Positions 1 through 32,035 of a DNA stretch of 64,000 nucleotides are shown here, in pieces (the first letter of the stretch is position 1; the number at the start of each line of letters is the position of its first letter). The notes beneath the pieces were generated by a model. That model did no database searches. It was not told the origin of the DNA and worked only from the letters and a program-made list of their open reading frames with translations. The stretch comes from Aureliella helgolandensis. Its GTDB lineage: Bacteria > Planctomycetota > Planctomycetia > Pirellulales > Pirellulaceae. The stretch is from the NCBI RefSeq assembly GCF_007752135.1, contig NZ_CP036298.1, positions 4,712,001 to 4,776,000 on the forward strand, read 5' to 3'. A program made the translations under genes and the position numbers.

Positions 1-3000
1 TCGGGCTGACTGTAATCAAAAAGGGGAAAAGTAGCTTTGTAAGCTGTCTTTTCCACAAGGATCAAAAGCCCTCGATGTCGCTGTACACACTTCCCAACGG
101 CGAGTGGCGTTACAAGTGTTTCTCTTGCGGCGAGAAGGGCGATGTCTTCGACTTGGTTCAGAGACACAACAATGTCGAATTCCGTGAGGCCCTCGAATTG
201 GTTGCTCAGTTCGCGGGAGTTTCACTACCACGAACTTCAAAAGCAAGTCGGTCTCGTTCAGCAGAGTCGATTGCGCTGAAAGCCTTTACGACAAGTACCG
301 CGTATGAAAAATCAGGCCTACAGACTTGGGCGAAGCAACGCGGTTACAAAATAGCAACACTAGAGCGGTTCGACGTCCGCTTCACCCGTAATCAAAAGCT
401 CTCAACTGAATTCAACAAAGATCGAGAGACGTTGGCTTCTCTTGAAGACGCTGGACTTGTCGTTCGCGCTGCAGGCGTTGATGCGCGACAACCAGAGCTG
501 GACCTGGACATTCCGTTTCGCGATGCAATGTTCGGAGATCGAATTGTCTTTCCTGTGAAGGACATTCGAGGGCAGCCAAGGGGCTTTATCGGTCGAGCAG
601 TCGCAGAAGATGCTCGGCAGCGATACCTTTTCACGAGGTCGTTCCAGAAGAGCAAGCACTTGTTCGGTGCTGATGTCGTGCGTAAAGCAATTGCGAGTGA
701 TTCGGACGCTGGCGAAGAGGGCACAATTGAACCGCTTGAATACGTCTATGTGGTTGAAGGGCCAACGGATGTACTCAGGCTTGCAGGTTTCGGACTCCAC
801 GCGGTCGCTGCGATGGGAAGCGATCTTTCTGAAACACAAGCTGAACTCCTCGGCGAACTTGCTCGCGACGCATTGATGCGAAATCGTTCGCCTGTGATAC
901 GGGTCTTTTTTGATAGTGACGATGCGGGCGTCGAGGGAACACGCCGAGTTCTCGCACAATTGCTTCGTCAGATCGTAAAGTCGGCAAACTTCATGATTGA
1001 AGTTGTGACCTCACAGGGCGGCGATCATGGCTACGTTGGGGCAGACCCAGACAGTTGGCTAAAAGGCGTTGCTAAGCGGACAGCTATTGAGCGAATAAGG
1101 GAGCATGTGACTGCGGTTGGACAATTTCTTTTGTCCCACAGCATTGGATGCAGATCAAGTGAATTGGAATCAAATTGGAAACGCCTCCCATCTTCCCAGA
1201 AGTTTTCTGCGAGACGGCGCGTCGAACTGTTGTTGAAACGCGATGAGTGGAACGATGTTCTCGACCGACTGGGAGATAGCTTCTTTCGCACTTCGTTTTC
1301 AGTAGACGACAACACAGGTACGCGAGGCACCTGGGAATTTGACCTCGAAAACTTTCTATCACGCCGTGAAGACAGTTCTGGCTCAGCGATTGAAGATGGA
1401 AACATTGTTAGGAGCAGCGAGCAACGCAATTTACTTCATGCGATTCAAATAGCGCATTGTTTTTCTCAACGACGAGAATTCCCAGTCGACGCGAAGAGTT
1501 GGGATCGGTTACTGGTCGGTGGTAACGTCATCGTTCCCTATTTCAGAGAGTTACTCGGAACCTCTAAATGCAAGATCGAACCGCTACTCGCCATGAGTGT
1601 GCCCAAGGCGTCAGGCGGGAGCCGACTGAAAGCGATTCCCTGCCCAGAACAACTTTCGATTCAACAGTATCTTCTCAATGAACTGTTGGGTAGCGATGAA
1701 AGTCGCCTACCACCCAGTTTTAGAGACTGTATCCCTGCCATTCGGTACTCCGGCGGTGGTGTTCACGCGACAGGCCTTCCTTCCGGTGCTTCGACTGCAG
1801 CGACTGCAGCGACTTGCTTTTCCTACCAAGTAGACATGTCGATTGCACATGGAGAGAAGACGCCGGGAAATGAAGGCTTTTTCCGCCCGTACCCGGAATG
1901 TTGGTCGGAATTTGTCGATTACCTATCCAACTCGGTACGCGAAAGCAATCGGGACTGGACTGACGATCGCCGGTACTACGTTGCTCGGCTTGACGTTCGA
2001 GGCTACTACGACTCACTTTCGAGGGCTGCAATCGACCGCGTGCTTTTAGAGCCATTGCAAAATGCAATTGGGACGCTCAGTAAACCAACTGATTTTGCCC
2101 CGTCGTTTCAACCAACCATCGGCGATACGGCGACGCGAGCACGGCAGTTTATTGATGTGCTATGCGACCAGAGCTTTGGATACCAATACTACGACCCAAG
2201 CACGGGAGTTGACACGTCATTTAATAGCGGAGCGCCTCGCGGTATGCCGCAGGGGCCAAGTCTGTCGGCATATCTTGGAACAATCGCACTATTTCCACTG
2301 GACCAAGCGGTTTCAGCCGCAATTGTTGAGTTGAATAAGGGCGTTTCGATTCCCTCGGTAACGTACGCTCGGTACGTAGACGACATGGTCGTCATCGCAC
2401 GCTCAAAGAACGATCTTAATCGCATTCGGATGTTGATCGAAAAAGAGCTTGGAAAGATTGGCCTCGATTTAAGTCCGAAGGTAGACCCATTACCAGCGAT
2501 GAATGCTATTGAGGTTCAGAATTGGCTAACCGCTGATCGCGGACTCGTCGGCGTTTCTGGATTCTCGCAAGCTCCCCCAATTGTAACACCCATCCTATCG
2601 GACGACGGGTGCGTCGATCGTCGTTCTGCCTTAGTGCAATTGCATGATCCGGAATTACGAAGGCCCGGCGTAACTGCGTCAGCCCTGTCAAGTGTTGTCG
2701 AAAAAGTCCTTAAGTGTGTTGAAGTCCGATTTGGTGATCAATGCCATGTCGCTGCATTGATCTGGAGAATCTATACCGCAGAGCTAAGCGAGACCGGAAA
2801 GACGTGGAGCAATTCCGACGCTGTCGGAAAGTTCAGAGAGCTATGGACTGCATCAGCTATGTCCAACGATGGCGATACCGAGCCTTCTCAAACCATGCTG
2901 TTCGCAGCGATTCACGGTCTCGATAAACTGCTCTCTAGTCGTAGCTTCAATTCTGAGGCATTCGCGGACGTTGAACAGGCGAAGGCACTTGACCTAAGAA

Positions 3001-6000
3001 ACGCGATCGCTCAATCAATCAATGCTGGATTGGTTGAGCAACTCAGGACTGATTTTAGTGCTGACTCGAACGACGACGGTTTCATTCTTTCCGTCCATGA
3101 ACTGAGCTTACTTGCACAAACGGTGACTATCTCGCCAGTCGATGACTCCCAGTATTTAATTGGACGAATCGAGCACTTGCGAGCCAACTTCCCTAAGTCG
3201 GAAACGATCACTCGTTATCTAATTTCGATTTCAGCCGTTCCGCCTTTCGGAGCGTTGCTTGCGAAACTTGGAAACGTTGTACGAGATGACACGCCTCTTC
3301 ATATTTTATATCACGAAGCTGTTGGGCGTTTATCGAACGAAAAGCAAGCTGACGACATCGATGTTTTGTTCTGGATGGAGCAGGCGATCAATGAGCAAGT
3401 CACATCATCGCCAGACAACTGCCTTGCCAAAATTTTGGCGAGCTGGCTCTCGACTGGAGATGATGTTGCATCTCGTGTAACTGGTGAACTTGCTGTTCGC
3501 TCGCTCAGCGTACTGCTTAACATTGCAATGACGGACGCAGCTAGGCTGCTGAATCGGCGACGTCCGCTCGTCGATGAAGCATTGAAAGCAAAAACGGAAG
3601 AGGATTCGGTTTGGTTGCCATGCATCCCCATCGGCGGCCTTCGATACTTTGTCGGATCAGCGCGTGGTAAGTTTCTTGCTGTTCCGATTGAGTCAGTGAA
3701 GAACCAGGTAGAATCGACGTCTGAATCGCCGCTCAATTCAGCGGATCTCGCACCTCGCAGTTTGAAATGGGAGACGGCAGGAACATCGTACGAGTACTTC
3801 AACGCCAACAGCGAAACTTGGCATCTACTCAAACCGGATGGCAAAGAAGAACTGTGGGAGAATGCAACCCTCGGTCGATGGATCGCAAGATCATTCGAGA
3901 ACTTGGTAAACGCCGCTTCGGACAGTTTTGAGTGCCCGCCGAACTTGTACAACTTAGTTGCGCGTGAAGGTTCTGAAGGCCAAGCGATTGAGGGAACCCT
4001 TGGGCACTCCGTCGAGGCGGAACAGTTGTCTGGGCAGAGTTTTGCCCGGTCAGCAATCAATGGCTTGCTCGCAAAGCCAGTTCCTCACAATGGCTCCAGA
4101 TACTGGCGGGCAGGTATCGCGATTACCGACTTTCTTGGATTGATGGATGAAGTGGCATGCAACCCGCTGGTGAACATTGTTCGTCCGTCAGCGATACCGG
4201 AGTCGTCCGAGGAGGACTGGGAGCATCAGTGGGCGCAGGAAAAGCTTATTCGGTTTAGTCTGCAGCGTCTCTGTGGCGGAACAGCAAAGGTTTCGCTTGT
4301 TCATGACAATGGGTCGATACCGCCCAGTCTGCAAAGGGTGATTGGTCGCCTGCGTTCGTTCCCAGCGTTGGGTGAGGACGACGAACCATATAGGCAAATC
4401 GCGGCAGTCGTCACGACGGTCTTTGAAACGCGTTTTGCCGCCAAGCGTTTTGATAGCGTCCACGCGGACGATGATCCGAGTGTGCCCGGAGTTCCAACCG
4501 ATCTTCTCGCAAGAATTGCAAGAAGCGTCATCTACACTGACCGGAAACTCTCTGAGCGATTGCCTGTAAGTCCCAGGCCGAAATTCATAGAACGTCGCAA
4601 TGTGTCTGCTTGGATCAGTTTTTCGGATCGCGTTGCAGAATTGAAAAAGCGTCTTGGTGAACGCGATGAGAATGTTGAAACACCACTTCAGGCACTTGCG
4701 AATGGCTTGGCGCTGACCGGACTTGCCGATTTGCTTCGATGTCTGACGCTCGAATTGGTTGTCGCAGAACCAGGTCTTCGCGAGGAGCTTATCGGTCTAG
4801 ATCCAAGCAAAGTGAATCTTGCTCAATGGAATCTCGATGACACCGGCTGTTTCGTTCGCGAACAACGAACAGAACAAGCAGAAGGAGAACGGTCTCAAGG
4901 AGTGGTATTGTTGTTGGCGACTCTGAACGGAGGATTGCAACCCGAGAATCGAAACTACAAAGAGAGTCTCGGTCGGATTACCCCGCTCGGTTGGTGTATC
5001 GCAGCAGGAATTGTTTCTGGGACGCTTTCGTCAAACTTGCGTCTCCGCTCGATGTCGACAGAAAATGACGATGAAAATGCAGTTTCGCTATTCCGTTCGC
5101 TTGCAGGTTTCTTAGCGGCACCTGTAAGCCGCAATGAGAATGACGATCTTCCGGACGAGTCAGATCCTTGGAAAGGTCTCGATTCACTTCTCAAGGATGA
5201 CTGCCACGAACGGGTACTCGAGTTTTCAAGCCAGCTTGAGGCGTATGGACGCCAAGTTGGTCTGATCGTCAGCGAGCCGCGTTGGTCAAAACGTTTCTCG
5301 CTTGTCCCTTCGGAATATGGCGAATCCTCCGCTGATGAAGGGCGCAGAACTTGGGAAGTCAGTCTCGGCCTCGAATCTTTCCAGATTGAGCCCTGGCGAA
5401 TCGCAACGGCGTCCACGGCAAGTGATAGCCCAGGACATAAAGCCGAGTACCGCATCGAAAACGAGCAATCTGAATCGTGCTGGACGGAGACACGATTTAA
5501 AAGCAGGCTTATTGCTGTTCACATTGCACAACCGGGGATCGCTTCGCTTGCTGGCTTCGCACTGCCGTTAAACGGTGATACGAGCGGAGAGCATCCGAGC
5601 GAGATAGATTCTGTCGGCGACAACGCTCTCGAAAAGAACACTTCCGAGCCGGTGCAGGTTCCGTCCCCAGTTAAGTCCGCCGTGTCGGAGCAACGTGCAG
5701 CGAAAGAAAACGAATCTAACATTGTGAAACCTGAGATCGAGTGTGACTGGGATGCCTTAACGAGAGCACAGGAGAAATCCTGGATTAGCCGGGCGAAGCA
5801 ACCGCGAAGTCACTACAAGCGAATCGCGTTAGTTCAACTACAGGTGGAACCCTTTGGTTCCTATCGACATCCCGTCTACGATTGCTCGGAACAGATTCTC
5901 AAGAAGCTTGCAGACGATGAACTCGCAAAAGAACAGGCGACAGCAGAGGAAGAAGGGATACAGCCAGACGATGAACGCTTTCCCAAGAAATCATGGGAAG

Positions 6001-7517
6001 CTGGAAAGCATCCCGCCCGTTTCGACGCGTTCAGCCCGGTTGAGCGGAGAAGGCGACGACTGCTCGATGAAGTGCTTAGAGCGTGCAAACTTTTCAACGT
6101 CGACTTTCTGGTTTTGCCGGAGTACTCAACTCGCCCGGAGACCGTCACATGGATTCAGCGTCAATTGGAAGACCGAAAAATCGAGACTCTTGTTTGGGCA
6201 GGCACTTTCCGACTACCGCCGTTCTACGACACTGCGACTTTTTCTTGGCTGAACGCTGCAAAGGAATGGGCGGCAGTGCTACCGATCGTCGGAAGAACCA
6301 ATCATCCAGGAATCAAAGACAAGACTGGATTCATGACCCGCCTCAAAAAGTATCCGTCTATTGCTTACAACGAGATTTTCAATCCTCCGTCCAACTTCCT
6401 GGGAGCGTTATCCGACGAAAGCACGCGAATCACAGAATTGATTTGCTCAGAAATATTCCTCGCAATGTCTCCGGCCAATCTTCTTGCGCTTTGGAAATCA
6501 CTCGATGCCCTTATCCAACGGTTCGGACGTTCGGTGGTTTCAAAACATATTGAAGAAGAATACGTCATGAAGGATGTCATTGCCTTTTCCAGGGAAACCT
6601 CGCTGTGTTATGAAGAAAGCCGAGTCGGCGAGCCGGCAAGCCGCCGTCGAAGCATTCTTTTCGTTCCATCTATGACACCGCGCACTGTCGATTACGCAAT
6701 CCTAGGCCAAGCGAACCATCTTGCTGCTGGAATGATGACCGTCTTCTGCAATGACTCTGGTTCTCACTCACATGGACAGAGCTGCTTCATCGGCGAAGAT
6801 GGCTGGGACAATGAAAATCGGAAAGAAATTCTTGGCATTCCTGGTGCTGGGCCGTACCACGGCCTAACGCCTGGATTCTTCCGACAGTTCCAAGCGGATC
6901 GCGGGTGGCTGGGCACTGACGAACAAGCGATGGTGATTGCGGACGTTGATCCAAATCACCAATTCGGCGGAAAACCGCGTCCACAGAATTTGCTACCACC
7001 TCTCGAGATGGTTGCGCACCTTCCGATTCTTGAGGTTGGCGGTCGACAAAATCAGGAACGAAAGAAGATCGACTATGGACGCCTGACGAAACTTCCTGCT
7101 CCTGATTTGGCCGAACTCGTTCGGGTTATCCCGTGGCTGGATGGGCTTGACTGGGGAAATCAAAAAGCGTCGGACATGGCGTCACGAAAGTTTGTGGTTG
7201 ATCGAATACTTCAAGGAATCTCGACGATCATTTCCGCCCCTACAAATTCGGGGAATACCATTGGCGACCACAAGAACTTCGTGCTTGCACGTGCGCTGTT
7301 GTCGCTGGCCCACAGTGTTCCGGAGAACGCAGGTTGGCTAAAACGACGGGCTGAAGCATACAAGAGCCAACACGCTTCAAATCCAATGCCGTATCCACCG
7401 CCAGTCGCAACGGATTGGTTATACGTTGACCTGGACGAGGATCGCGAAGATGACGATGAATGCGAGCTGCAAGTCCCCCAAGTCGAGACGGAACCTGATG
7501 AAAAACTAAGCGACTGA
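1..7517 (+). CDS. Primase-reverse transcriptase-nitrilase fusion (DRT class 1-like), 5' end outside window
   Basis: Likely anti-phage reverse transcriptase with a built-in primase. The frame is open from base 3, so the real start lies upstream. The first ATG (75) is inside the zinc finger: Cys 45-47 and His 54-56 precede it, and the second half CFSC is at 117-128. Numbering from the ATG at 75: CHC2 zinc finger up to about residue 50; DnaG-like catalytic region with TOPRIM motifs EGPTD (228-232) and DSDDAG (280-285); RT palm with LDVRGYYDSL (Asp640), GAPRGMPQGPS near 718-730 and YVDD (767-770); about 1000 residues with no recognised domain; nitrilase fold from about 1915 with Glu2016 (VLPEYS), a Lys near 2091 and Cys2225 (VFCNDSG), a complete Glu-Lys-Cys set. 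RT plus nitrilase is known from DRT type 1 (UG1-type RTs); placement in that family is inferred. Stop TGA at 7515-7517. Confidence 0.88.
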   Translation, partial: GLTVIKKGKSSFVSCLFHKDQKPSMSLYTLPNGEWRYKCFSCGEKGDVFDLVQRHNNVEFREALELVAQFAGVSLPRTSKASRSRSAESIALKAFTTSTAYEKSGLQTWAKQRGYKIATLERFDVRFTRNQKLSTEFNKDRETLASLEDAGLVVRAAGVDARQPELDLDIPFRDAMFGDRIVFPVKDIRGQPRGFIGRAVAEDARQRYLFTRSFQKSKHLFGADVVRKAIASDSDAGEEGTIEPLEYVYVVEGPTDVLRLAGFGLHAVAAMGSDLSETQAELLGELARDALMRNRSPVIRVFFDSDDAGVEGTRRVLAQLLRQIVKSANFMIEVVTSQGGDHGYVGADPDSWLKGVAKRTAIERIREHVTAVGQFLLSHSIGCRSSELESNWKRLPSSQKFSARRRVELLLKRDEWNDVLDRLGDSFFRTSFSVDDNTGTRGTWEFDLENFLSRREDSSGSAIEDGNIVRSSEQRNLLHAIQIAHCFSQRREFPVDAKSWDRLLVGGNVIVPYFRELLGTSKCKIEPLLAMSVPKASGGSRLKAIPCPEQLSIQQYLLNELLGSDESRLPPSFRDCIPAIRYSGGGVHATGLPSGASTAATAATCFSYQVDMSIAHGEKTPGNEGFFRPYPECWSEFVDYLSNSVRESNRDWTDDRRYYVARLDVRGYYDSLSRAAIDRVLLEPLQNAIGTLSKPTDFAPSFQPTIGDTATRARQFIDVLCDQSFGYQYYDPSTGVDTSFNSGAPRGMPQGPSLSAYLGTIALFPLDQAVSAAIVELNKGVSIPSVTYARYVDDMVVIARSKNDLNRIRMLIEKELGKIGLDLSPKVDPLPAMNAIEVQNWLTADRGLVGVSGFSQAPPIVTPILSDDGCVDRRSALVQLHDPELRRPGVTASALSSVVEKVLKCVEVRFGDQCHVAALIWRIYTAELSETGKTWSNSDAVGKFRELWTASAMSNDGDTEPSQTMLFAAIHGLDKLLSSRSFNSEAFADVEQAKALDLRNAIAQSINAGLVEQLRTDFSADSNDDGFILSVHELSLLAQTVTISPVDDSQYLIGRIEHLRANFPKSETITRYLISISAVPPFGALLAKLGNVVRDDTPLHILYHEAVGRLSNEKQADDIDVLFWMEQAINEQVTSSPDNCLAKILASWLSTGDDVASRVTGELAVRSLSVLLNIAMTDAARLLNRRRPLVDEALKAKTEEDSVWLPCIPIGGLRYFVGSARGKFLAVPIESVKNQVESTSESPLNSADLAPRSLKWETAGTSYEYFNANSETWHLLKPDGKEELWENATLGRWIARSFENLVNAASDSFECPPNLYNLVAREGSEGQAIEGTLGHSVEAEQLSGQSFARSAINGLLAKPVPHNGSRYWRAGIAITDFLGLMDEVACNPLVNIVRPSAIPESSEEDWEHQWAQEKLIRFSLQRLCGGTAKVSLVHDNGSIPPSLQRVIGRLRSFPALGEDDEPYRQIAAVVTTVFETRFAAKRFDSVHADDDPSVPGVPTDLLARIARSVIYTDRKLSERLPVSPRPKFIERRNVSAWISFSDRVAELKKRLGERDENVETPLQALANGLALTGLADLLRCLTLELVVAEPGLREELIGLDPSKVNLAQWNLDDTGCFVREQRTEQAEGERSQGVVLLLATLNGGLQPENRNYKESLGRITPLGWCIAAGIVSGTLSSNLRLRSMSTENDDENAVSLFRSLAGFLAAPVSRNENDDLPDESDPWKGLDSLLKDDCHERVLEFSSQLEAYGRQVGLIVSEPRWSKRFSLVPSEYGESSADEGRRTWEVSLGLESFQIEPWRIATASTASDSPGHKAEYRIENEQSESCWTETRFKSRLIAVHIAQPGIASLAGFALPLNGDTSGEHPSEIDSVGDNALEKNTSEPVQVPSPVKSAVSEQRAAKENESNIVKPEIECDWDALTRAQEKSWISRAKQPRSHYKRIALVQLQVEPFGSYRHPVYDCSEQILKKLADDELAKEQATAEEEGIQPDDERFPKKSWEAGKHPARFDAFSPVERRRRRLLDEVLRACKLFNVDFLVLPEYSTRPETVTWIQRQLEDRKIETLVWAGTFRLPPFYDTATFSWLNAAKEWAAVLPIVGRTNHPGIKDKTGFMTRLKKYPSIAYNEIFNPPSNFLGALSDESTRITELICSEIFLAMSPANLLALWKSLDALIQRFGRSVVSKHIEEEYVMKDVIAFSRETSLCYEESRVGEPASRRRSILFVPSMTPRTVDYAILGQANHLAAGMMTVFCNDSGSHSHGQSCFIGEDGWDNENRKEILGIPGAGPYHGLTPGFFRQFQADRGWLGTDEQAMVIADVDPNHQFGGKPRPQNLLPPLEMVAHLPILEVGGRQNQERKKIDYGRLTKLPAPDLAELVRVIPWLDGLDWGNQKASDMASRKFVVDRILQGISTIISAPTNSGNTIGDHKNFVLARALLSLAHSVPENAGWLKRRAEAYKSQHASNPMPYPPPVATDWLYVDLDEDREDDDECELQVPQVETEPDEKLSD

Positions 7518-9614: not shown

Positions 9615-9817
9615 GCCAACGGATCATTATCCGAATCGACACCGAAGGAGCCACGCAGGTCCGTACCGAGGGCTTCCGTGGAAACAGCTGCCAGGCGGCG
9701 AGCCGCCTGCTTGAACGAGCGCTGGGGCGTACTACGTCCGAGCAGCTCACAAGTGATTACTACCAATCCAGTACTACCACTGGAAATCAACAATTTGAAA
9801 CTGGAGATACGCCATGA
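9611..9817 (+). CDS. DUF2997 family small protein
   Basis: A 68-aa protein. It starts at ATG 9611, overlapping the DUF1257 stop by four bases, and its own stop overlaps the next start in the same way. The centre, TEGFRGNSCQAASRLLERAL followed by GRTTSEQLTSDYY, matches the DUF2997 pattern of a Gly-x-x-Cys turn, a helix ending in LG, and a terminal Tyr-Tyr. DUF2997 normally travels with DUF1257 and Ycf46-type ATPases, as here. Function unknown; the neighbourhood suggests a small subunit or substrate adaptor of the ATPase. Confidence 0.82.
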   Translation: MSQRIIIRIDTEGATQVRTEGFRGNSCQAASRLLERALGRTTSEQLTSDYYQSSTTTGNQQFETGDTP

Positions 9818-11316
9818 ACACTGGCACCCATTCACTCTCTGACGAAATCTGGGAACTGGTTCGTGCCGGCTTCTCAGGAATTTGGATCGAGACGCACGAA
9901 CCGAGTGAGGCGATTCTAGAGCTCTCAGCCATGAGTGCCGAACACGACCTGCGTCTGCTTGCCTGGAATCTCGATTCGGGGTTGCGGTGTGTAGGCGGTG
10001 GACAACCTGAGGACAGTCAGGCTGATCCGATGGCCGCGATTCGCAGTCTGGCGACTCTGCCCGACGAGCAGTCGACTCTCCTGGTGCTGGAGAATTTCCA
10101 CTACTTCGTCGATTCCCCCGAGATCTGCCAAGCCCTGCTGACTCAGCTTCAGTTGGGCAAACAGTTCGGGAGGCATCTCGTGATCGTCTCACCCACGGTT
10201 CGACTCCCCGCAGTCTTGGAGCGACAGTTTGTGGTCCTGCAGCATGCGCTGCCTGTAGGTGGGCAGTTGTGGGATATTGCTGAATCTTTGATCGAAGACG
10301 TTGAGCTCTACCCAGAGTCCCAGCGTCAGGCCCTCAGAGAAGCAGCAGCCGGCATGACTCGGCTGGAAGCGGAGTCGGCTTTCAGTCTCTCTCTAGTACG
10401 GCACTCCAGACTTACGACCGAAGAGGTCTGGCAGCTGAAATCGGCTTGGTTGCGCAAATCGGGCATGCTCCAGCTTCATCAGAGCCAACACGGCTTTGAG
10501 TCGCTGGGTGGGCTGGAGAGCTTGAAGCAGTTCTGTCGCCATTCGCTGCGGCGACAGTCAGCAACGCTCGCCAGACCACGTGGTGTGGTGCTGCTGGGCG
10601 TTCCGGGTACGGGGAAGAGTGCCTTTGCGAAGTCGCTGGGCAAGGAGGTCGACCGGCCTGTGATGATGCTCGATGTCGGGCAGCTCATGGGCTCACTGGT
10701 CGGTCAGAGCGAAGCGAATCTTCGTGACGCTCTGAAGACGGCTGATGCCATGGCTCCATCGATTCTGTTTATCGATGAGGTCGAAAAGGCTCTCTCTGGC
10801 GCCGCCTCGGGTGGCAGGGGAGACAGTGGCGTTTCAAGTCGCCTGTTTGGCACGCTGCTCACCTGGCTCAACGACCACCAGAGTGACGTGTACACCATCG
10901 TGACCTGCAACGACATCCAGCGGCTCCCACCAGAGTTCAGTCGCGCTGAACGCTTTGATGGGATCTTCTTCCTCGATCTACCCGGGCGCGAGGAGAAGGA
11001 GGCGATTTGGGAATTGTACTTGAGTGAGTACGAGATCGACCCTTCTCAGGCTCGTCCGGAGGATGAACAGTGGACTGGCGCCGAGATCAAAGCTTGTTGC
11101 CGGCTCTCCAGCCTCCTGAGCGTCCCGCTAGTCGACGCGGCTCAGTACATCGTACCAGTCGGGGTAACCGCCTCGGAAGACATCCAGCGGCTCCGTAGCT
11201 GGGCCAATGGGCGTTGCCTGGATGCTTGCCAGCCTGGCATCTTCCGAACAGCCCTACCGACAACCACGGCCAAGCGTCCCAGGCGAGGCATCAGCCTCCG
11301 TCCCTCGGACAACTAG
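9814..11316 (+). CDS. ycf46: Ycf46-like AAA+ ATPase
   Basis: A 500-aa ATPase. Residues 1-220 form an N-terminal domain (ELVRAGFSGIWIETHEPSEA) typical of Ycf46-type proteins, which begin with a degenerate ATPase-like half. The AAA+ core follows: Walker A GVPGTGKS near 262-269, Walker B ILFIDEVEKAL near 320, a TCND sensor and the Arg-bearing SRAERFDGIFFLDLPGREEK stretch. It starts by an ATGA overlap with DUF2997. Ycf46 is known from cyanobacteria and red-algal plastids, where it has been linked to inorganic carbon responses; its role in this organism is unknown. A strong terminator follows at 11382-11420, ending the first transcription unit. Confidence 0.87.
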   Translation: MNTGTHSLSDEIWELVRAGFSGIWIETHEPSEAILELSAMSAEHDLRLLAWNLDSGLRCVGGGQPEDSQADPMAAIRSLATLPDEQSTLLVLENFHYFVDSPEICQALLTQLQLGKQFGRHLVIVSPTVRLPAVLERQFVVLQHALPVGGQLWDIAESLIEDVELYPESQRQALREAAAGMTRLEAESAFSLSLVRHSRLTTEEVWQLKSAWLRKSGMLQLHQSQHGFESLGGLESLKQFCRHSLRRQSATLARPRGVVLLGVPGTGKSAFAKSLGKEVDRPVMMLDVGQLMGSLVGQSEANLRDALKTADAMAPSILFIDEVEKALSGAASGGRGDSGVSSRLFGTLLTWLNDHQSDVYTIVTCNDIQRLPPEFSRAERFDGIFFLDLPGREEKEAIWELYLSEYEIDPSQARPEDEQWTGAEIKACCRLSSLLSVPLVDAAQYIVPVGVTASEDIQRLRSWANGRCLDACQPGIFRTALPTTTAKRPRRGISLRPSDN

Positions 11317-20444: not shown

Positions 20445-20861
20445 ATGCCGGACGATCCCAGTCTATTTCCAACAGGGATTTCTAGACACCAGTTGGAATC
20501 GCTGAGTAGCTTTGCGGATTCTGCCCAAGGCGCTTCGGCAGGGCTATTGCTCTCTCAGGCCGAAGAGCACGCGAAAAACGCTGAAGTAGCGTATCTGCAG
20601 AATGCAATTGTGAATCGTCGGCTAGCCATCGCGATATTGGATTCGATTCAGGCCGTGTTGAGTCGATGGTCAGAATTGCCGGAAAGCTACAAGTATTGGC
20701 TAGGCGGAGCAATTCGATATTTTGTTAGCAGCAACGATGAAGAGCCAGATTTCAACTCTCCCATCGGATTTGAAGACGATGTTGAAGTACTGAATGCGTG
20801 CCTTCGCTTTGCCAGACTCAATGATCTGTGCCTGGCCGTGGAGGATTACGACGATGCCTAG
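20445..20861 (+). CDS. YkvA/DUF1232-like small protein
   Basis: A 138-aa protein. The C-terminal half, IRYFVSSNDEEPDFNSPIG then FEDDVEVLNACLRF, resembles the YkvA (DUF1232) signature, in which a Pro-Asp-Phe turn precedes a Gly and an acidic DD before a helix. Unlike many YkvA proteins it has no clear membrane helix. The first half is helical and charged. It is the first gene of the DISARM-like operon; its stop overlaps the SNF2 helicase start by eight bases. The ribosome site before ATG 20445 is weak. Confidence 0.62.
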   Translation: MPDDPSLFPTGISRHQLESLSSFADSAQGASAGLLLSQAEEHAKNAEVAYLQNAIVNRRLAIAILDSIQAVLSRWSELPESYKYWLGGAIRYFVSSNDEEPDFNSPIGFEDDVEVLNACLRFARLNDLCLAVEDYDDA

Positions 20862-23841
20862 AGTTGCAACTCCCACGCCAGGCATGCGGGTCCTTTGTCG
20901 TGATGCCGAATGGCTGGTTACTCGCGTCGACCCGTCCGATCAAAGTCACCAGAACTACGCCGTTCATTGCATTGGTGCGGATGATCTGGTTCGTGGCCAC
21001 GAGGCAATCTTTCTGACTCAGTTGGACACGATTGAACCGGTTGATCCCCGAAAGACTCAATTGGTTCAGGACCAGTCCAGTGGTTATCGGATGGCGAAAC
21101 TCTTCCTGGAGGCCCAGCTCCGGCAGATGCCCGCGACGGGCGTCAAGCCGGATTTGAGAGGCATGGGCGTCTTTAAGCCGATGCAGTTTCAAATCCAGAC
21201 CGTGGAATGGGCTCTACAGCAACTTCGGCCTCGGCTATTGCTGGCCGATGCCGTCGGGCTTGGCAAGACGATTCAGGTCGGGATGGTGCTTTCGGAGTTG
21301 ATGCGTCGTGGCCGGGCGAATCGCGTTTTGGTTCTCGCCAAGAAGTCGATGCTGACTCAGTTTCAGTCGGAACTCTGGAATCGCTTTGGATTTCCATTGG
21401 TGCGACTCGACTCTGCTGGAATCGCCAAACTGCGGCTGCGAATCCCGACCAACAAGAATCCGTTTGAAGTCTATCAACGTGTCATCATCAGTATCGACAC
21501 GCTGAAGAACGTTGGCAGCTATCGACACTTTCTGGAAAACACACGTTGGGATTGTGTCGTCATCGATGAAGCCCATAACGTTGCTGGTGCCAGCGTTCCG
21601 GAACGGCACCTAGCGTACCGCCTGGCTCGATTGCTGTCACGTCGCACGGATTCGATGCTGCTGACTACCGCTACACCGCACAACGGGAAACGGGAAACAT
21701 TTGGGCGGCTGATTTCATTGCTAGACCCGTCCGCGATCCCCGATCCGGATTTCAAGGAATACAACGCCGAAGACATCAGAGGCTTCTTCTTGATGCGATT
21801 CAAGGAGGATGTTCGAGAAGATGCAGGTGCCGATCTGACCGACCGCATGCTTGTGCCGATCGATCAGACGACCGTCGCTGCGTCCGAGGGCGAGGAGAAG
21901 GTCTACGCGATTCTGTCCGAATTGCGCGCCGAAGCGATGAAGAACAAGAGTGAAGAAGCCTGGAAGAACAACGTGCTGGTGCAATATGGCATCTACAAGC
22001 AGTTCCTCTCCAGCCCAGAATCATGTCGCAAGACGCTCCAGAAGCGAATTACCGCTGTTCAGGCCAAAGATCCAGAGAGCCCAGAACTTCCCTACCTCAA
22101 CCGTATGGATTCGCAACTCGGCACGCTGAGTATCCGGGATTCGTCCAGGTATCAGCTTCTCAAACGACAGTTAGAAGCGATCGGTTGGGATGGCAAGGAA
22201 AACAGTCCCCGCGTACTAGTTTTTACGGAGTATCGCGAAACGCAAGATGCCCTGGCGGCGGCATTAGCCAAAGACTTCAAGATCAAATATTCGCCGAAGT
22301 TCGAGCAACAACCCAAACAGGTGCTGGCCACGATCAACGGCTCGTGCCCCGACATCCATCTGATGAAGACAGTTGAGGCATTTGGAACAGGTGCATCTGA
22401 CGTCCGTATGCTGCTGGCAACGGATGTCGCTTCGGAAGGAGTCAATCTGCATCACCAGTGTCACAACATCATTCATTATGACTTGCCTTGGTCGATCATC
22501 ACGCTGATTCAACGCAATGGTCGTATCGACCGCTTCGGGCAGACCGAGAGCCCGGTGCTGCGATATCTGCGAGTCAGCACGCGGGATGGAATGTTGAAGG
22601 GAGACGAGTCAATCTTCGAGCGACTGATCGAGAAGGTCGAGGAGATCAATCGTTCAACGCGCCAGGGTGAAACGGTCCTGAAACTGTACGACCCGGAAGC
22701 GGAAGAACGCTACATCGCCGAGGCGGGAATCCTGCAAGGCAATGTCGATGTGTTGGAGAAGCCTTCTTCGGAAGGTGAAGCGGAGTCGACCGAACTGGAA
22801 TCTGTTTTGAGCCAAGCCAACCCAGCAGGACAAGAAGACTTTCTAAAATTCCTGCTGGGTGAAACCGAGGACGTTCCCACCGCGGATCCGGCAGCTGGTT
22901 CATCGAGTGAGCAGCATTCGCGACTGCGACTGTACGACGACAAGAAATTCCTGCTGGATGGCTATCGCTACTTGGCAGAACTCCATCAGGATTATGCGGC
23001 CATCGAAGAAAACGGAAAGTTGATGCTGCTCAACGCCCCCAAGGATCTGCGGCGTCGACTTGGTGCGCCCAATGACCGTGGTGATGTGGTTTTTGGGGCA
23101 ACCGCTGTCCCCGTCGAATCCTGGCCCGAAGACAACCAGTTCCGCCTAACAGATGACCCGGATCGAGTGGAACTCGCAATCAAGTCCGCTCGAAACACCT
23201 CAGGCCATTGGTCCAGGGAACTACTCGCGACAGACCAACAACCGATTCTGCAGTGGATCACCGAGCGGCTGTTGATGTTGATGAAACGAGGCGAATGCCC
23301 TCACATCACGTCACGCAAGCTTGAGGAGGGTGAGCTCTGTTTCTGCTTTATCGGCCAAATCAGCTCCCGCGCCGGAGCTCCGTTGGTGGTGGATGCCCAT
23401 GCGATTTCATTCCGTAAGGGGGGCGGGTTTGAGCACCGGTCGCTTCGCGATGCGTTGGACGCGGCCGGATTTGACAGCCTTATTAACCAAGGCAACACGG
23501 GCGACATCAAGGCAATCCAGGGGCCACTGATCGAAGCAGCCGTGGAATCCAGTCTCGAACATATGCGTAAACTTGGTAGGCAACACGTCAATAGCTTGTT
23601 GCCCTTCCTACGACGCGAGAATCGCAGGCTACGTAACTGGAAAAACCGCCGCCAGGAGTTGCTCGAATCTCGCATTGATAAACTGCCACCGAATCATCGC
23701 AAGACAAAGATGTATCGCAAAGACCTAGAAGAGATGGACGCCTATTTGCGGGACCGAGAAGACAACTGGCAAGATACCTACTTCACGGCATCGACGGAAC
23801 CTTCGACGCAGTTGGTCCTGGTGATTGAAGGAGTCAAATGA
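20854..23841 (+). CDS. SNF2-family helicase (HepA/RapA-like, DrmD-like)
   Basis: A 995-aa ATP-dependent DNA translocase. The start at ATG 20854 (MPRVATPTPGMRVLC) is preferred to an upstream ATG at 20794 because the earlier gene runs to 20861. Residues 8-65 resemble an N-terminal SH3/Tudor-like module. Motif I ADAVGLGKT is near 128-136, DEAH (VIDEAHN) near 236, and motif VI IQRNGRIDRFGQ near 550. The last 300 residues are a charged, partly coiled C-terminal region. SNF2 proteins of this type are the DrmD component of some DISARM systems. It overlaps the YhcG gene by four bases. The stop is TGA at 23839-23841. Confidence 0.87.
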   Translation: MPRVATPTPGMRVLCRDAEWLVTRVDPSDQSHQNYAVHCIGADDLVRGHEAIFLTQLDTIEPVDPRKTQLVQDQSSGYRMAKLFLEAQLRQMPATGVKPDLRGMGVFKPMQFQIQTVEWALQQLRPRLLLADAVGLGKTIQVGMVLSELMRRGRANRVLVLAKKSMLTQFQSELWNRFGFPLVRLDSAGIAKLRLRIPTNKNPFEVYQRVIISIDTLKNVGSYRHFLENTRWDCVVIDEAHNVAGASVPERHLAYRLARLLSRRTDSMLLTTATPHNGKRETFGRLISLLDPSAIPDPDFKEYNAEDIRGFFLMRFKEDVREDAGADLTDRMLVPIDQTTVAASEGEEKVYAILSELRAEAMKNKSEEAWKNNVLVQYGIYKQFLSSPESCRKTLQKRITAVQAKDPESPELPYLNRMDSQLGTLSIRDSSRYQLLKRQLEAIGWDGKENSPRVLVFTEYRETQDALAAALAKDFKIKYSPKFEQQPKQVLATINGSCPDIHLMKTVEAFGTGASDVRMLLATDVASEGVNLHHQCHNIIHYDLPWSIITLIQRNGRIDRFGQTESPVLRYLRVSTRDGMLKGDESIFERLIEKVEEINRSTRQGETVLKLYDPEAEERYIAEAGILQGNVDVLEKPSSEGEAESTELESVLSQANPAGQEDFLKFLLGETEDVPTADPAAGSSSEQHSRLRLYDDKKFLLDGYRYLAELHQDYAAIEENGKLMLLNAPKDLRRRLGAPNDRGDVVFGATAVPVESWPEDNQFRLTDDPDRVELAIKSARNTSGHWSRELLATDQQPILQWITERLLMLMKRGECPHITSRKLEEGELCFCFIGQISSRAGAPLVVDAHAISFRKGGGFEHRSLRDALDAAGFDSLINQGNTGDIKAIQGPLIEAAVESSLEHMRKLGRQHVNSLLPFLRRENRRLRNWKNRRQELLESRIDKLPPNHRKTKMYRKDLEEMDAYLRDREDNWQDTYFTASTEPSTQLVLVIEGVK

Positions 23842-25013
23842 TGGCCAACCAGGATTTAACGCTGCCGCAGGATTACAGCCAATTCATCGAGACGCTCAGC
23901 CATCGCGTCGCCACGGCTCACGTTTCGGCCAGCCGGGCAGTGAATCGCGAGCTCGTTAGTCTGTACTGGGACATTGGAAAGCAGATCGTTTGCAAGCAGA
24001 ACGAGGCCGGATGGGGCAACAAAGTGGTTGAGCAAATCGCCCTGGATCTGCGTGCGAGATTCCCCGACAGGCAGGGCTTTTCACGATCGAATATTTTCTA
24101 CATGCGATCGTTCTATCTTGCTTACTCGCAGGGACTTACAAATGTCCAACAGGCTGTTGGACAATTACCAGGGGCTCCTCCAACCGAAAAAGTCGCGCGA
24201 CCTGCGCGACGTTTGGGCGGCGAACCACAACCATCAATAGTCCCACAGCCTGTGGGACAAGTTCCCGAATCGCTGGCAATTGTCCCGTGGGGGCACAACA
24301 TCCTACTGGTGGAAAAGCTCGACACCGTCGAATCCCGGCTCTGGTACGCTCAGCAAATCACCCTCAACGGCTGGTCGCGAGCCGTCCTGGCTCACCAGAT
24401 TGAGTCGGATCTCTTCGGACGTCAGGGCGCCGCAATCACCAACTTTCAGCAAACCCTGCCGGCTCCTCAGTCCGACCTGGCTCGTGAGCTGATCAAAGAT
24501 CCGTATCACTTCGGTTTCCTTGGTATCGCACACGATATAAGTGAACGTCAGCTGGAAGCCAGCCTGCTGAAGAAACTCACTGACTTTCTATTGGAACTTG
24601 GCAAAGGCTTTGCGTTCGTCGGTCGTCAGTACCATCTCAATGTTGGCGAGCAGGATTTCTATCTGGATCTGCTTTTCTACCACCTCGATCTGCGCTGCTT
24701 TGTTGTGATCGATCTTAAAGTTGAATCCTTCAAACCGGAATTCGCCGGAAAAATGTCGTTCTATCTTTCTGCGGTGGACGAACAACTGGCCAAAGAAGGT
24801 GACCAGCCGTCCATCGGCCTGATCCTCTGCAAAGAACACAATCACATCATTGTGGAATACACGTTACGACATCTGGAAAAGCCCCTGGGTGTCGCGTCTT
24901 ACCAATTACTGCCGACAGACGTTCAGTCAAAACTCCCGAGCCCTCAGGAATTGCAGAATCAGCTCGAAACTGCACTGGACGAAGCAGCATCCACAGAAAG
25001 TGAGGATGCGTAG
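23838..25013 (+). CDS. yhcG: DUF1016 (YhcG-type) PD-(D/E)XK nuclease
   Basis: A 391-aa protein. The N-terminal DUF1016 helical domain (HVSASRAVNRELVSLYWDIG, QGFSRSNIFYMRSFYLAY) is followed by a variable linker, then a nuclease domain with Asp273 (QDFYLDLLFYHL) and IDLK (Asp292, Lys294), the expected catalytic set. AGGAG lies before ATG 23838, which overlaps the helicase stop. The linker (about residues 102-150) is encoded by two 19-21 nt palindromes and the bases between them, and looks inserted. YhcG-type nucleases recur in defence islands beside methylase and helicase genes. It lies three bases before the methylase gene and is probably the cutting enzyme of the operon. Confidence 0.87.
   Translation: MMANQDLTLPQDYSQFIETLSHRVATAHVSASRAVNRELVSLYWDIGKQIVCKQNEAGWGNKVVEQIALDLRARFPDRQGFSRSNIFYMRSFYLAYSQGLTNVQQAVGQLPGAPPTEKVARPARRLGGEPQPSIVPQPVGQVPESLAIVPWGHNILLVEKLDTVESRLWYAQQITLNGWSRAVLAHQIESDLFGRQGAAITNFQQTLPAPQSDLARELIKDPYHFGFLGIAHDISERQLEASLLKKLTDFLLELGKGFAFVGRQYHLNVGEQDFYLDLLFYHLDLRCFVVIDLKVESFKPEFAGKMSFYLSAVDEQLAKEGDQPSIGLILCKEHNHIIVEYTLRHLEKPLGVASYQLLPTDVQSKLPSPQELQNQLETALDEAASTESEDA
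24143..24258. repeat. Twin palindromes inside the DUF1016 gene
   Basis: GTCCAACAGGCTGTTGGAC (24144-24162) and GTCCCACAGCCTGTGGGAC (24240-24258) are both perfect 9-bp-arm palindromes. The differences between them are paired, an A-T pair in one being a C-G pair in the other, so pairing is kept. They encode VQQAVGQLP-like and VPQPVGQVP-like peptides in the same frame. Confidence 0.75.
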
Positions 25014-26945
25014 CCCATGCCCTTAGATACCTGCATCACGAACGTTGGCGAATACTATTCGTCGCACTATCTGGACAGCACCTTTGCCAAGGACGTCAAG
25101 GAACTGGTGGCGAAGTGGAGTGAGTTGGGCTCGGATGCTCCGCCACGTCGGTTTCAGAACCTGTCGCAGTATTACTTCCGTGCCAAGACCCAGGTACTGG
25201 ATGAAGAAGAGCCCATCCGGCGACAGTTTGCCGGTGACGAAGCTCGCGGCTGGCACTCGCAACTGCTGCACTCGTTGGGATACACCGAACTCGAACCGCT
25301 GGATCATCCCACAGAGGGCGGTGACACGTTTGTGCCGACGCTGGGGCGAGTCAACCGCTACAACAAGCCGTGGCTGGTGGTTTGCGAAACGCACTTTTGC
25401 CTTCCTGAAGGCAGTCTGAAAGAAGGGATGCCCAGCGAAGATCCGCTCGGCATGCAGCCCTACAAGGATCAACTGAAGAATCAGGCCGACCACAAGCTGT
25501 GTGAAGGCGACTGGAGCCGTTGCGTTGGACGCATCTTTACGGAAGAAGATGCACCTCGCTGGATTCTGATGCTGGCCGGTAGTCAGGTCTTGCTGCTCGA
25601 TCGCAACACGTTTGCTCAGGGTCGATTCCTGGCCTTTGATCTGGACGATGCGTTCGGTCGCAAAGAGAAAGACACCTTCAACCACATCGCGGCATTCCTG
25701 TCCGCAGATACGCTTTGTCCGGATGGCGAATCGGACGAAGTGCTGCTGGACAAGCTGGAAGAACAAAGCCACCGGTTTGCTCATGGTGTGACGGAGAGTT
25801 TGCAGTTCGCGGTCCGTGAGGCGATTGAGTTATTGGTCAACGAGTGGGCTCGTGACCGAACCGAGCGAGAGAAGCGTCCGCTCTTGAAACTCGCGAAAGA
25901 CGAATTGAAACGGTCGGGGCAGAATTTCTCCCTCAACCTGCCAGAGCTCGACGACCGCACGTATGAAATCACGGCTGAGCATCTGCGTCGCGAGGCACTG
26001 ACGTTCGTTTATCGGCTGTTGTTTTGTTTCTACGCGGAAGCCCGCGGTGGTGAGCTGGAGATCCTGCCGGTCGACGACAACATTTTTCGGCTAGGTTACA
26101 GCCTGGAGTCGTTGCGTGATCTGGAGCTGGTGCCGCTGACCGATGCGACGAGTGAGGGGACGTACTTTCACCAGCATTTGAAGTCGCTGTTCAGCATCAT
26201 TCACGGCGGTTTCCGTCCGAACGACGACTCCAACAAGGCCGAACAGTCTCGCTTGCTGTTCAACGGCGAAACTGTGCGAGCGTTTGAAGTTCGTCCTCTG
26301 ACGGCCACACTGTTTTCGCCTGATGCGACACCGCTGCTCAACCGGGCGGAGTTGTCCAATGGGTGTTTGCAGCAGGTAATTCGCAAGCTATCGCTCAGTA
26401 CCGACAAGAATTCAAGAACCATCGGTCGCGTGAATTACGCCGAATTGGGCATCAACCAGTTGGGCGCCGTCTACGAAGGCTTGCTGTCTTACAAGGGGAT
26501 GTTCGCGGACCAGGAGTTAATCCACGTCAAACCGGCCAGCAAAGACTTTGGCGACAAAAAGACACCGACGTGGTTTGTCCCGAAGGATCGGCTGGAAGAA
26601 TTCAAGAAGGACGAAGTCGAACGTCTCGAAGACGGTAAGCCGCGGATTTACCGCAAAGGCGAATTCATCCTGCATCTCAACGGGATCGATCGCGAACAAT
26701 CGGCGTCGTACTACACGCCGGAAGTTCTAACTAAATGTCTGGTCGAGGAAGCCTTGCGGGAGCTGCTGAAGGATTACACGCCCGATGATGCCGACAAGAT
26801 CTTGCAACTGAAGATCTGCGAACCGGCGATGGGCAGCGGCGCGTTCCTGAACGAAGCCGCCGAGCAACTGGCGACTCGTTACCTGGAACTGAAGCAGAAG
26901 CAGCTCCAAGAAAAGTACCCGTCTGGCGAAGTTCCGCTCAGCGAT

Positions 26946-26953
26946 TTGCGAAT
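26946..26953. repeat. IS256 target-site duplication, left copy
   Basis: TTGCGAAT, identical to 28428-28435. Eight bases is the usual duplication length for IS256-family elements. Confidence 0.9.
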
Positions 26954-27043
26954 GGGGATGTCCCTTGCGTTGTTAAAACTGTTGGTGGTCTCGCTGGCTA
27001 AAGGGTACTGGAAAAGGTCTTTAGGATCAAACAGGTGGTGGAA

Positions 27044-28318
27044 CTAAAGTGATGGGGCCCGTGCCGTCGCCGGAGCCGTAGGCGACGGCACGGGCCCCGA
27101 CGGCGGCTTTGTTGGTGTAGCCGCGTGTTCTCTCGCTAGGGCGGCAATCAGCTTAGGTAGTTCCTTGTGGCCGCTGATTCGATGGAACCCCTTTTCGGCC
27201 TCAAGCAGTGCGTAGGACAGCCAGCGACTCGCCTGATCCGTGTCGGCTCGGAATCGTGTTACACGCCCCAAGCGGCGACGCGTGTTCAGGAAGGAGTTCT
27301 CAATCGCGTTGGTACTTAGCAGTGAACGATGGAGCGTGTTTGGCACTTCGAGTCGGTGAAGGGCTAGCAGGTCCTCACCGGCCTCATGAAGGCTCTTAAA
27401 CGCTTCGGCATTGAGAGGCTCAAGGAATGCCTCTAGCTCGCCGACGACCTCTTGTGCGGCGGTATAACCCTGCACGCTACGGAGTCGTCTAAACAGCCGA
27501 GCGAGTTCACCCGTATGACGCTTCGATAGCTTGCCACGAATGTTGCGTTCCTTGTGAACTAAGCAGCGTTGGATGACCGAGTCGGGGAAGTGCTCCTTGA
27601 CCGCTTTGCGAAGCACATCGCTGCCATCCAGGACTGCCAGTAAGCGCTGCGAGCAAGTAAAGCCGCGACGGGCCAAGCGAGCAAGCAATTCATTGGATAC
27701 AACTGCATTTTCACTACTGCCCAGCGCAAAGTCGAGCACATGCTTGCAGCCTTCAGAATCAATACCGAGAGCAACCACTGCCGTCTGGTCTGAGCTTAGC
27801 CGGATACCATCGAGCATCAGAATGCACCACGTATGCCCCGACAGATCACGGCTGCGTAGCTCGTCGATCAATCGTGTTCCCGCCTCTTGCCATAGACGCG
27901 AGACGCTCGAGCGGCTTACGCCTGGCGACTTCGGCTTCACCACAGACATCTGACGAGTGCTTACCCCAGACATCAACGCTTGAATTACAGCCTTCTCCAG
28001 CTGCTCAGGATCGTTGGCGGCAGCGTAGCTGATCAGCTCCACTTCGCGGCTTCCCCCCGCCTCCTGACGCTCGCGAACTCGCGGACGCGTCACCGACTCC
28101 CGTTCACCTTCGACCAAGATGCGTCCCGCGGCGCTACCAGCTCGATAGGTCCGACAATCGCTCGGGGCGTGCTTTGGGCCGCACAGTTCAGCCACTTCGG
28201 CAGCCATTACCTCACAGGCCATCTTCACGATCGAGCCCCGTAAGAATTCGCGAAACACTTCGCCAACTTCAGCGTTCGAAACTTGCCCAAGCTCGCGCAA
28301 CAAACTAGATTCAGTCAT
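27044..28318 (-). CDS. IS256 (Mutator-type) transposase
   Basis: A 424-aa DDE transposase starting at ATG 28318 ([12 protein letters not shown]). The frame stays open upstream to 28603 but that part crosses the IS end into the methylase gene. The catalytic acids are in [16 protein letters not shown] and [15 protein letters not shown], the Asp-Asp-Glu set of IS256 enzymes. The ribosome site GGGGAG lies inside an 11-bp stem (see 28319-28395). The gene looks complete, with no frameshift. Its last 18 codons carry a perfect 18-bp inverted repeat. Confidence 0.93.
27054..27098. repeat. Perfect 18-bp inverted repeat at the transposase 3' end
   Basis: The arms 27054-27071 (GGGGCCCGTGCCGTCGCC) and 27081-27098 pair over 18 bp around a 9-base loop. 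They encode the Pro/Ala-rich end of the transposase ([13 protein letters not shown]). Unusual for coding sequence; it may stop read-through or stabilise the transcript end. Confidence 0.85.
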
Positions 28319-28395
28319 GGTGGTCTCCCCGTCGGCGGTAACCGACGTAAATTGGAAAATGCAGAAGGCAATATATTGCCTTCTGGGAGACCACC
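28319..28395 (-). promoter_or_regulatory. Nested inverted repeats masking the transposase ribosome site
   Basis: GGTGGTCTCCC (28319-28329) and GGGAGACCACC (28385-28395) form an 11-bp stem directly upstream of the transposase ATG. Between them lie a CGTCGG/CCGACG hairpin (28330-28347) and a perfect 24-bp palindrome (28362-28385, half-site CAGAAGGCAATA). On the transposase strand the stem includes the GGGGAG ribosome site. Transcripts entering from outside the element would fold and hide it, while a transcript starting inside would not. Such protection is known for other IS elements; here it is inferred. Confidence 0.6.
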
Positions 28396-28427
28396 TTTCA
28401 ACTTTTAACAACGATTCGGACGCTTCC

Positions 28428-28435
28428 TTGCGAAT
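28428..28435. repeat. IS256 target-site duplication, right copy
   Basis: TTGCGAAT, identical to 26946-26953. Joining one copy to the left flank restores the methylase frame. Confidence 0.9.
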
Positions 28436-31400: not shown

Positions 31401-32035
31401 TCGTGTCGCGCTCTTCGGCTGAATTGTGTTTCGCTCGCGTATAAAGAACTGTGGAACGAATCAGTTATTCTTGAACGAGATAATTGGACTTCAACGGACA
31501 ACCGACTTGTCCACGAATACGAACTCCCTTGGAGTGAGCTGAACCCGTCCGAGTGGACTTGGAAAACGCCGCTGCGGAGTGACTTTGCGCGTCGTCAGGC
31601 ACTGTTGGAAATCGACGTGCTGGTGGCGATGGGGCTGGGGCTGACACTCGACGAGCTGCTGACGATCTACCGAGTCCAGTTTCCCGTGATGCGGATGTAT
31701 GAACTGGCCGACGAGTTCGACGCCTGTGGCCGCCGCCTCCCCAACACTGTCCGAAAAAACCAGGGCGGCACCCAGTTCCGCACCGCACGCAACGAAGCCC
31801 TCGAAAAGTACCCCGAGGCCTACAAAACCCGCCCCGCCGAAGACGCTCTCAGCCCTGATTTGCCCTTCGCCGACGAAATCGGCGACGCCCCACCGCTGGA
31901 AGTCAGCTGGGAAATCGACGACGGCCTGCAAACCGTCACCAAAACCTTCTACCCACCCTTCACCAAAGTCGACCGCGAAGCCGACTACGCCCGAGCGTGG
32001 GAAGAGTTTGAACGACGATATCCAAAGGAATCGAA

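Follow-up and report, generated by a model that had tools for sequence, protein, structure and literature searches.

Introduction

Class 3 UG/Abi reverse transcriptases (RTs) are defined by an RT and a nitrilase or phosphohydrolase domain in one protein, and two of them, DRT1 and DRT5, are reported to be protein-primed. DRT1 starts synthesis on its own Ser402 and makes semi-random DNA, which assembles the protein into dormant filaments and arms its nitrilase; defence needs both the RT and the nitrilase active sites, and escape mutants of phage T4 map to Dda, a single-stranded DNA helicase. The priming serine is reported as not common to other class 3 DRTs, and a partner, Drt1b, is found beside about 18% of drt1 genes (all according to PMC13275509). 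A primase domain has been joined to a defence RT in DRT7, an RT–primase-polymerase fusion for which there is preprint evidence of protein-primed, duplex-like DNA (PMC13213688), and a preprint cited in PMC13174585 reports, by its title, a PrimPol–RT hybrid with proofreading exonuclease activity. RT–TOPRIM retrons also exist, namely Ec67 (PMC7699616) and retron-Eco2 (PMC13275509). Throughout this literature, as far as the available portions extend, the priming described for defence RTs is on a protein residue.

Here, we analysed a stretch of 64,000 nt from the planctomycete Aureliella helgolandensis (hereafter the window), at the start of which lies a gene for a DnaG-type primase, an RT and a predicted nitrilase in a single chain.

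Results

One chain with three enzymes, belonging to a catalogued family

The gene covers window positions 1–7517 (+), where it appears as an open frame from 3 to 7517, and its product has 2526 aa. The first start codon of the frame is a GTG at genome position 4711937 of the 8.44-Mb contig, 64 bases upstream of window base 1, and residue n of the protein corresponds to window position 3n-66. From N to C terminus, a DnaG-type zinc ribbon and polymerase/TOPRIM primase are followed by an RT palm containing YVDD, a weakly conserved stretch of about 1000 residues and, at the C-terminal end, a nitrilase fold. Pfam families above their cut-offs are Zn_ribbon_DnaG (7.7e-13), DNAG_N (3.4e-10), Toprim_2 (2.2e-6) and RVT_1 (1.1e-8), and the PADLOC model RT_UG29 (PDLC03767) matches the protein end to end with 1393 bits (profile positions 23-2278 of 2280). 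As a single model spans the whole protein with such a score, the match is beyond chance, and the Pfam and PADLOC scores rule out an assembly of chance motifs. The initial annotation, which had read a DnaG zinc finger and TOPRIM, a YVDD RT and a nitrilase in one chain, is thus borne out by the profiles together with the predicted nitrilase fold.

The full-length match also means that PADLOC already lists the family among candidate defence RTs, in agreement with the DRT membership proposed initially. The initial annotation was not aware of a DnaG-like primase fused in front of such RTs; the fusion is on record, as the PADLOC model already spans it. The A. helgolandensis protein is a divergent planctomycete member of the catalogued UG29 family and not a novel kind of protein, and UG29 is probably an anti-phage RT family. 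The UG groups of RTs were reportedly named in a survey by Mestre in 2022. Our literature search found no paper pairing the word UG29 with reverse transcriptase, no experiments on the family and, among the searchable papers, no mechanism; reverse transcriptase, DnaG and nitrilase co-occur in one paper only, where dnaG is an item in a list of neighbouring domains.

Among 60 related genomes, its own included, only its own genome gave a full-length match, and some match was present in 58 of them, the strong ones being DnaG-length frames. The host itself carries a separate DnaG-length frame of 677 aa, which rules out the UG29 protein as its sole primase.

Sampling of relatives

A scan of genome contigs with a single sequence returned no match, and a profile of three sequences returned 50 loci, a lower bound since only two short patterns were used. 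Both patterns were drawn from the RT part and made no selection for primase or nitrilase. With two plasmid members, from Polaromonas and Sphingomonas, this gives 52 loci beyond the query, or 53 with it. By known taxonomy, 39 of the 50 genome-contig loci belong to Pseudomonadota, the others to Planctomycetota, Acidobacteriota and Bacillota, with two labelled Deltaproteobacteria and one Pedosphaera. The distribution is patchy, across several phyla and on plasmids too, and we infer horizontal transfer. Two loci matched in viral contigs were of other kinds (L077, DRT3a/DRT3b; L076, an RT of another kind).

Conservation was counted on the 44 of 53 loci with frames of at least 2300 residues. Left out were four loci running off their contig (L029, L044, L050 and L058), L053, whose frame stops 83 bases short of the contig end, and four with broken, split or shortened frames (L042, L063, L067 and L070); 16 of the 44 intact proteins entered the RT and primase trees. 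Identity to the A. helgolandensis protein is 24-35% among the 44 (median 24.8%), the nearest relative being L026 at 35%.

Three of the omitted loci show other arrangements of the modules. In Pseudoalteromonas (L063:10001-18304), two frames overlapping by shared stop/start bases encode primase–RT and then middle–nitrilase. In Aureimonas (L042:813-8549), primase, RT and nitrilase lie on three separate frames in the same reading frame, either a natural split or a decayed gene. In a Lachnospiraceae locus (L067:4357-7152), a 931-aa frame passes from the primase and the start of the RT, up to about aa 654, straight into the nitrilase end, which begins near aa 2210, and has neither YVDD nor the region of the nitrilase triad. 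Such short forms may be natural, given that the PADLOC RTasDnaG-like model matches both the UG29 primase half and the UG29 nitrilase end.

The primase half

The primase half comprises aa 1-400, with the DnaG-type part at aa 23-400 (window 1–1136, +), identified as CHC2 zinc ribbon and RNA polymerase/TOPRIM domain by Pfam, DnaG profile and Foldseek. A profile of 21 UG29 primase halves matched Aquifex DnaG (2au3) at E 2.5e-46 over positions 9-396, covering zinc ribbon and polymerase domain, and DnaG folds lead the Foldseek list for the predicted primase–RT structure (1.3e-16). The zinc ligands Cys37, His40, Cys61 and Cys64 (45–128, +) are each present in 44/44 proteins, as are five of the TOPRIM acids, Glu274, Asp278, Asp326, Asp328 and Asp370; the sixth, Asp372, is Asp in 38 and Asn in 6 (all six at 756–1052, +). 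The half thus has the CHC2 zinc ribbon, the polymerase domain and the TOPRIM acids of a DnaG, and the possibility raised at the outset that it lacks active residues in all homologues is excluded. Near the DnaG active site, Arg220, Lys/Arg229 and Tyr230 are kept in 44/44 and Lys/Arg238 in 43/44. Pfam gave no match to the C-terminal helicase-binding domain at E<=1. In the primase tree, 16 UG29 halves group with one UG6-associated DnaG-like protein and are separated at 100/100 from the other 54 DnaG-type proteins, in a run for which the program issued a long-branch warning and the bootstrap had not settled.

The reverse transcriptase and its placement

The RT domain (aa 500-960; window 1434–2816, +) contains Asp686, PQGP at 771-774, YVDD at Tyr813-Asp816 (2373–2384, +) and Lys848. 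Asp686, Gln772, YVDD and Lys848 are invariant in 44/44, and Asp692 is replaced by Glu in 2. After UG29 itself, the PADLOC families closest to this RT are UG10_large, then UG19 and UG4 (among the best 25 of 48), and among those matched by all 21 members the leading ones by best E-value are UG10_large, DRT1a, UG34 and UG19 (among the best 25 of 88); RT_UG6 is absent from both sets, that is, from the best 25 of 48 for the first member and the best 25 of 88 for the 21 members. The Drt1a profile matches the UG29 protein over one stretch only (positions 163-330 of 1176) and not at full length, and the UG29 RT profile scores 8.2 bits against the UG6 RT, which is not the score of a UG6-type RT. The best PDB profile matches of the RT are DRT2, a maturase RT, a retron-type RT and DRT9, with DRT1 at 6.2e-6. 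A survey for UG10_large gave one partial match in 229 genomes at E<=1e-15, which proved to be UG17.

The initial annotation had expected this RT to group with nitrilase-linked RTs. In a 43-row tree, the 16 UG29 RTs form one clade (99/96), and DRT1 and UG5-nitrilase are joined at 94/81. Forcing UG29, DRT1, UG5-nitrilase and UG6 into one clade costs 2.96 log units (p-AU 0.381) and the joining branches are weak, so the union of UG29 with the other nitrilase-linked RTs is neither supported nor rejected by the tree.

As DRT1 primes on a serine, hydroxyl residues after the RT are relevant here. Positions 856 and 874 are Ser, Thr or Tyr in 95% of the 44 proteins, position 856 being Asn in A. helgolandensis, and no Ser/Thr/Tyr column is fully kept between aa 820 and 1140 in the 44. 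The predicted primase–RT structure has a pTM of 0.53 and no confident domain placement, such that the facing of the two active sites is not readable from the model.

The middle region and the C-terminal nitrilase fold

The middle region (aa 961-1929; window 2817–5723, +) is weakly conserved and matches no Pfam family above cut-off. It is followed by a predicted carbon-nitrogen hydrolase (nitrilase) fold with C-terminal helices (5724–7514, +), supported by structure prediction and fold search. Pfam gave no CN-hydrolase match in the nitrilase parts of 21 members at E<=1, and a PDB sequence-profile search with this part found no nitrilase; the identity of the domain therefore rests on the predicted fold. 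PADLOC gave weak links from the nitrilase part to UG5-nitrilase (4/21 members, best 4.8e-5), Drt1a (5/21) and RTasNitrilase (2/21). AlphaFold2 modelled the last 597 residues with a pTM of 0.87, and the 29 PDB matches of the fold search at E<=1e-3 are carbon-nitrogen hydrolases at probability 1.00, yeast Nit2 first, with modest TM-scores of 0.30-0.53 by target. Among the listed matches is a Drosophila pyrimidine-degrading enzyme, which we take to be a carbon-nitrogen hydrolase. The DRT1 structure 9yfd, found in the PDB sequence-profile search with the RT, is not among the best 50 fold-search matches (library to 2026-04-08). Glu2062, Lys2137, Glu2146 and Cys2170 (6120–6446, +) are each present in 44/44 proteins. 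We regard it as settled that the C-terminal end has, by its predicted structure, a nitrilase fold with a Glu-Lys-Cys triad, which places it in the superfamily.

The search for homologues with the same three domains, proposed with the initial annotation, thus returned the catalytic residues of all three in 44/44 proteins, bar the substitutions at Asp372 and Asp692. Since three separate active sites persist through this much sequence change, all three enzymes are probably in use. Primase, RT and nitrilase distances run parallel (r 0.93-0.95), a figure that shared ancestry alone inflates.

A split relative

The genome that carries the UG29 locus L027 also contains an operon (L159) of RTasDnaG-like (369 aa, 277 bits), RT_UG6 (1076 aa, 841 bits) and RTasNitrilase (310 aa, 319 bits; all PADLOC). 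The genes succeed one another as the domains of UG29 do, and each overlaps or abuts the next. Pfam has no match on the RTasNitrilase protein, which has further PADLOC links to Drt1a and UG5-nitrilase. Between the two systems, similarity of the RTs and of the nitrilases is distant, the UG29 nitrilase profile giving -1.0 bits here beside the low RT score mentioned above. At another locus (L162), an RT scoring 91 bits to Drt1a and 91 to UG6 is paired with an RTasNitrilase (206 bits), and no DnaG-like frame of at least 200 aa adjoins the pair. Operon and pair together mean that the three enzymes are combined through more than one arrangement of genes, and that systems other than UG29 may do without the primase. 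No UG6 RT was found in plasmids, phages or viral contigs; at E<=1e-20, one of 247 genomes (already known) and one of 338 (a partial match) had one, and a third set gave 0/294, where the controls gave no match either.

Neighbouring genes

Among neighbour families, a DEDDh-type exonuclease of about 300 aa recurs most often, its gene being adjacent in 8/53 UG29 loci. The eight loci fall within one alphaproteobacterial clade of nine (44-row tree, SH-aLRT 100), and in the ninth member, on a Sphingomonas plasmid, the exonuclease gene is adjacent across the point where the circular record begins; 8/9 genes, all except that of L033, were examined for the kind of exonuclease. We treat the parallel to the PrimPol–RT hybrid with proofreading activity as a lead only.

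A Drt1b-like membrane-protein gene follows the UG29 gene at 2/53 loci. At L063 the protein scores 164 bits in PADLOC and is followed by a smaller relative of itself, and in Psychromonas (L071:17745-18644) the gene overlaps the end of the UG29 gene and its product resembles the L063 protein at E 1.8e-52. These neighbours and the RTasNitrilase match have raised, very slightly, our confidence in the reading of UG29 put forward in the Discussion. Across the family, the 74 nearest neighbours gave single matches at E<=1e-25 to restriction, Jet-type, HerA and other PADLOC families, in a comparison run without a control set, and none of the PADLOC families had matches in two or more of the 74 at that threshold. 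A conserved upstream non-coding RNA, as in retrons and class 2 DRTs, was not seen by blastn in 41 upstream regions, where only near relatives matched each other.

Both plasmid members have recombinase or integrase genes near them, and about 570 bases upstream of the A. helgolandensis gene lies a gene whose product carries an N-terminal domain of integrase type (9.9e-5). Downstream in the window are SNF2 helicases, a PLD protein, DrmD- and DrmMI-like proteins, an Eco57I-type methylase and a GmrSD-type protein, and the region is defence-rich. An AAA ATPase with an IetA-like PADLOC match is encoded at 9814-11316 (+). The segment 13065-19371 (-) has an SNF2-type helicase with PDC-M27C/ZacC-like PADLOC matches, a PLD protein with a weak ZacB-like match and a 429-aa protein with no Pfam or PADLOC match at E<=0.001. 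The DrmD-like helicase and the DrmMI / type IIG-like methylase at 20794-27047 (+) suggest a DISARM-like or restriction cluster. A 1240-aa protein with an Eco57I methylase match lies at 28317-32039, FRG-domain, GmrSD-type, RelA/SpoT-type and Sacsin/HATPase-type proteins stand in a row at 42286-47579 (+), and two very large frames, of 2232 and 1894 aa, occupy 33322-40020 (+) and 49158-54842 (+).

Discussion

We believe, with moderate confidence, that UG29 is a single-chain, defence-associated RT working like a class 3 DRT, with the DnaG half starting synthesis. In such a protein the polymerase part would make DNA outside the genome, and this DNA would set the state of the C-terminal nitrilase, as in DRT1. 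Phage infection would release the nitrilase, by analogy the effector of UG29, to attack an essential amide or amine metabolite, so that the infected cell stops. Phage-derived single-stranded DNA would be captured by the zinc ribbon of the DnaG half; this half would then synthesise a short RNA and hand it over to the RT, which would elongate it with DNA, and in the alphaproteobacterial clade the DEDDh exonuclease might trim or proofread the product. The hand-off of the primer to the RT is the least certain step, and we give it somewhat less than an even chance. Taken as a whole, the scheme in which an RNA primer synthesised on single-stranded DNA of the phage passes between active sites and the resulting DNA arms the nitrilase, in both a fused (UG29) and a three-gene (UG6) form, strikes us as possible but on balance unlikely.

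The initial annotation had seen in the fusion an RT set apart by needing no external primer; this is no speciality of UG29, since DRT1 starts on its own Ser402 (PMC13275509). As DRT1 primes itself on a serine, a primase is not needed in principle, and the L162 pair, with no DnaG adjacent, counts against its necessity. The RT of UG29 might therefore prime itself on a protein hydroxyl to give single-stranded DNA, with the DnaG half priming the second strand of a double-stranded product, much as the protein priming of DRT1 and DRT5 and the duplex-like DNA of DRT7 would suggest. The hydroxyl residues at positions 856 and 874 speak for this route, though position 856 is Asn here; against it stand the missing invariant hydroxyl column in aa 820–1140 and the DRT1 serine, which, being reportedly not common to other class 3 DRTs, is not a transferable position, and we consider the route rather improbable. 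A little less probable again is a DnaG half that serves as a sensor or switch, recognising single-stranded DNA of the phage or replication intermediates with its zinc ribbon and TOPRIM and so controlling RT and nitrilase. The mapping of DRT1 escape to Dda makes replication-fork DNA a plausible trigger, and the Asn in place of Asp372 in 6/44 would fit a binding role, but a pure binder need not keep metal-binding acids, and of the six, five are invariant and the sixth is kept in 38/44.

That UG29 serves the replication or maintenance of a mobile element rather than defence would suit a primase joined to a polymerase, the plasmid members with their recombinase or integrase genes and the integrase-like gene upstream of the present one. 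However, 50/53 loci come from genome assemblies or a genome collection (with contigs not sorted into chromosomes and plasmids), no replication partner is shared by many of the loci, the commonest neighbour being the exonuclease at 8, PADLOC files UG29 among the DRTs and a Drt1b-like gene follows two members. Moreover, we know of no role in replication for the conserved nitrilase, which we also count against this explanation, and we judge it highly unlikely. Least probable of all is a TOPRIM acting as nuclease or effector and not as primase, for which the RT–TOPRIM retrons Ec67 and retron-Eco2 offer precedents: the UG29 half combines a complete DnaG zinc ribbon with the polymerase domain and is not a bare TOPRIM, an effector candidate is already there in the nitrilase, and by blastn the 41 upstream regions resemble each other only between near relatives.

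If synthesis primed by the DnaG half is the correct reading, a defence RT would start on the replicating DNA of the invader and not on a protein residue. With UG29, a widespread family has a complete DnaG primase in one chain with an RT, which makes a primase-made primer directly testable, and the split UG6 operon allows the question to be addressed gene by gene.

In comparison with known systems, the A. helgolandensis protein belongs to PADLOC RT_UG29 from end to end and differs from it in nothing of kind. The UG6 operon has the three UG29 modules in UG29 order, all three named by PADLOC as DRT parts, but in three genes instead of one and with an RT and a nitrilase barely alike by sequence. 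DRT1 (UG1) and UG5-nitrilase share with UG29 an RT followed by a C-terminal nitrilase, and UG29 combines RT and nitrilase in a single protein as class 3 is defined; both are without the primase half and about half as long, the UG29 RTs form their own clade, and the partner Drt1b of DRT1 has its likeness beside 2/53 UG29 loci. In DRT7/UG10 a primase is likewise joined to a defence RT, and UG10_large is the next-best PADLOC model for the UG29 RT; its primase is of the AEP/PrimPol type (PMC8934634, PMC13213688 and a title cited in PMC13174585), whereas that of UG29 is DnaG/TOPRIM, and the available portions of PMC8934634 and PMC13213688 mention no nitrilase, unlike what we describe for UG29. Finally, Aquifex DnaG (2au3) shares with UG29 the zinc ribbon and the RNA polymerase/TOPRIM domain with its metal-binding acids, and the UG29 half differs from bacterial DnaG in having no detected helicase-binding domain and in being fused to an RT and a predicted nitrilase.
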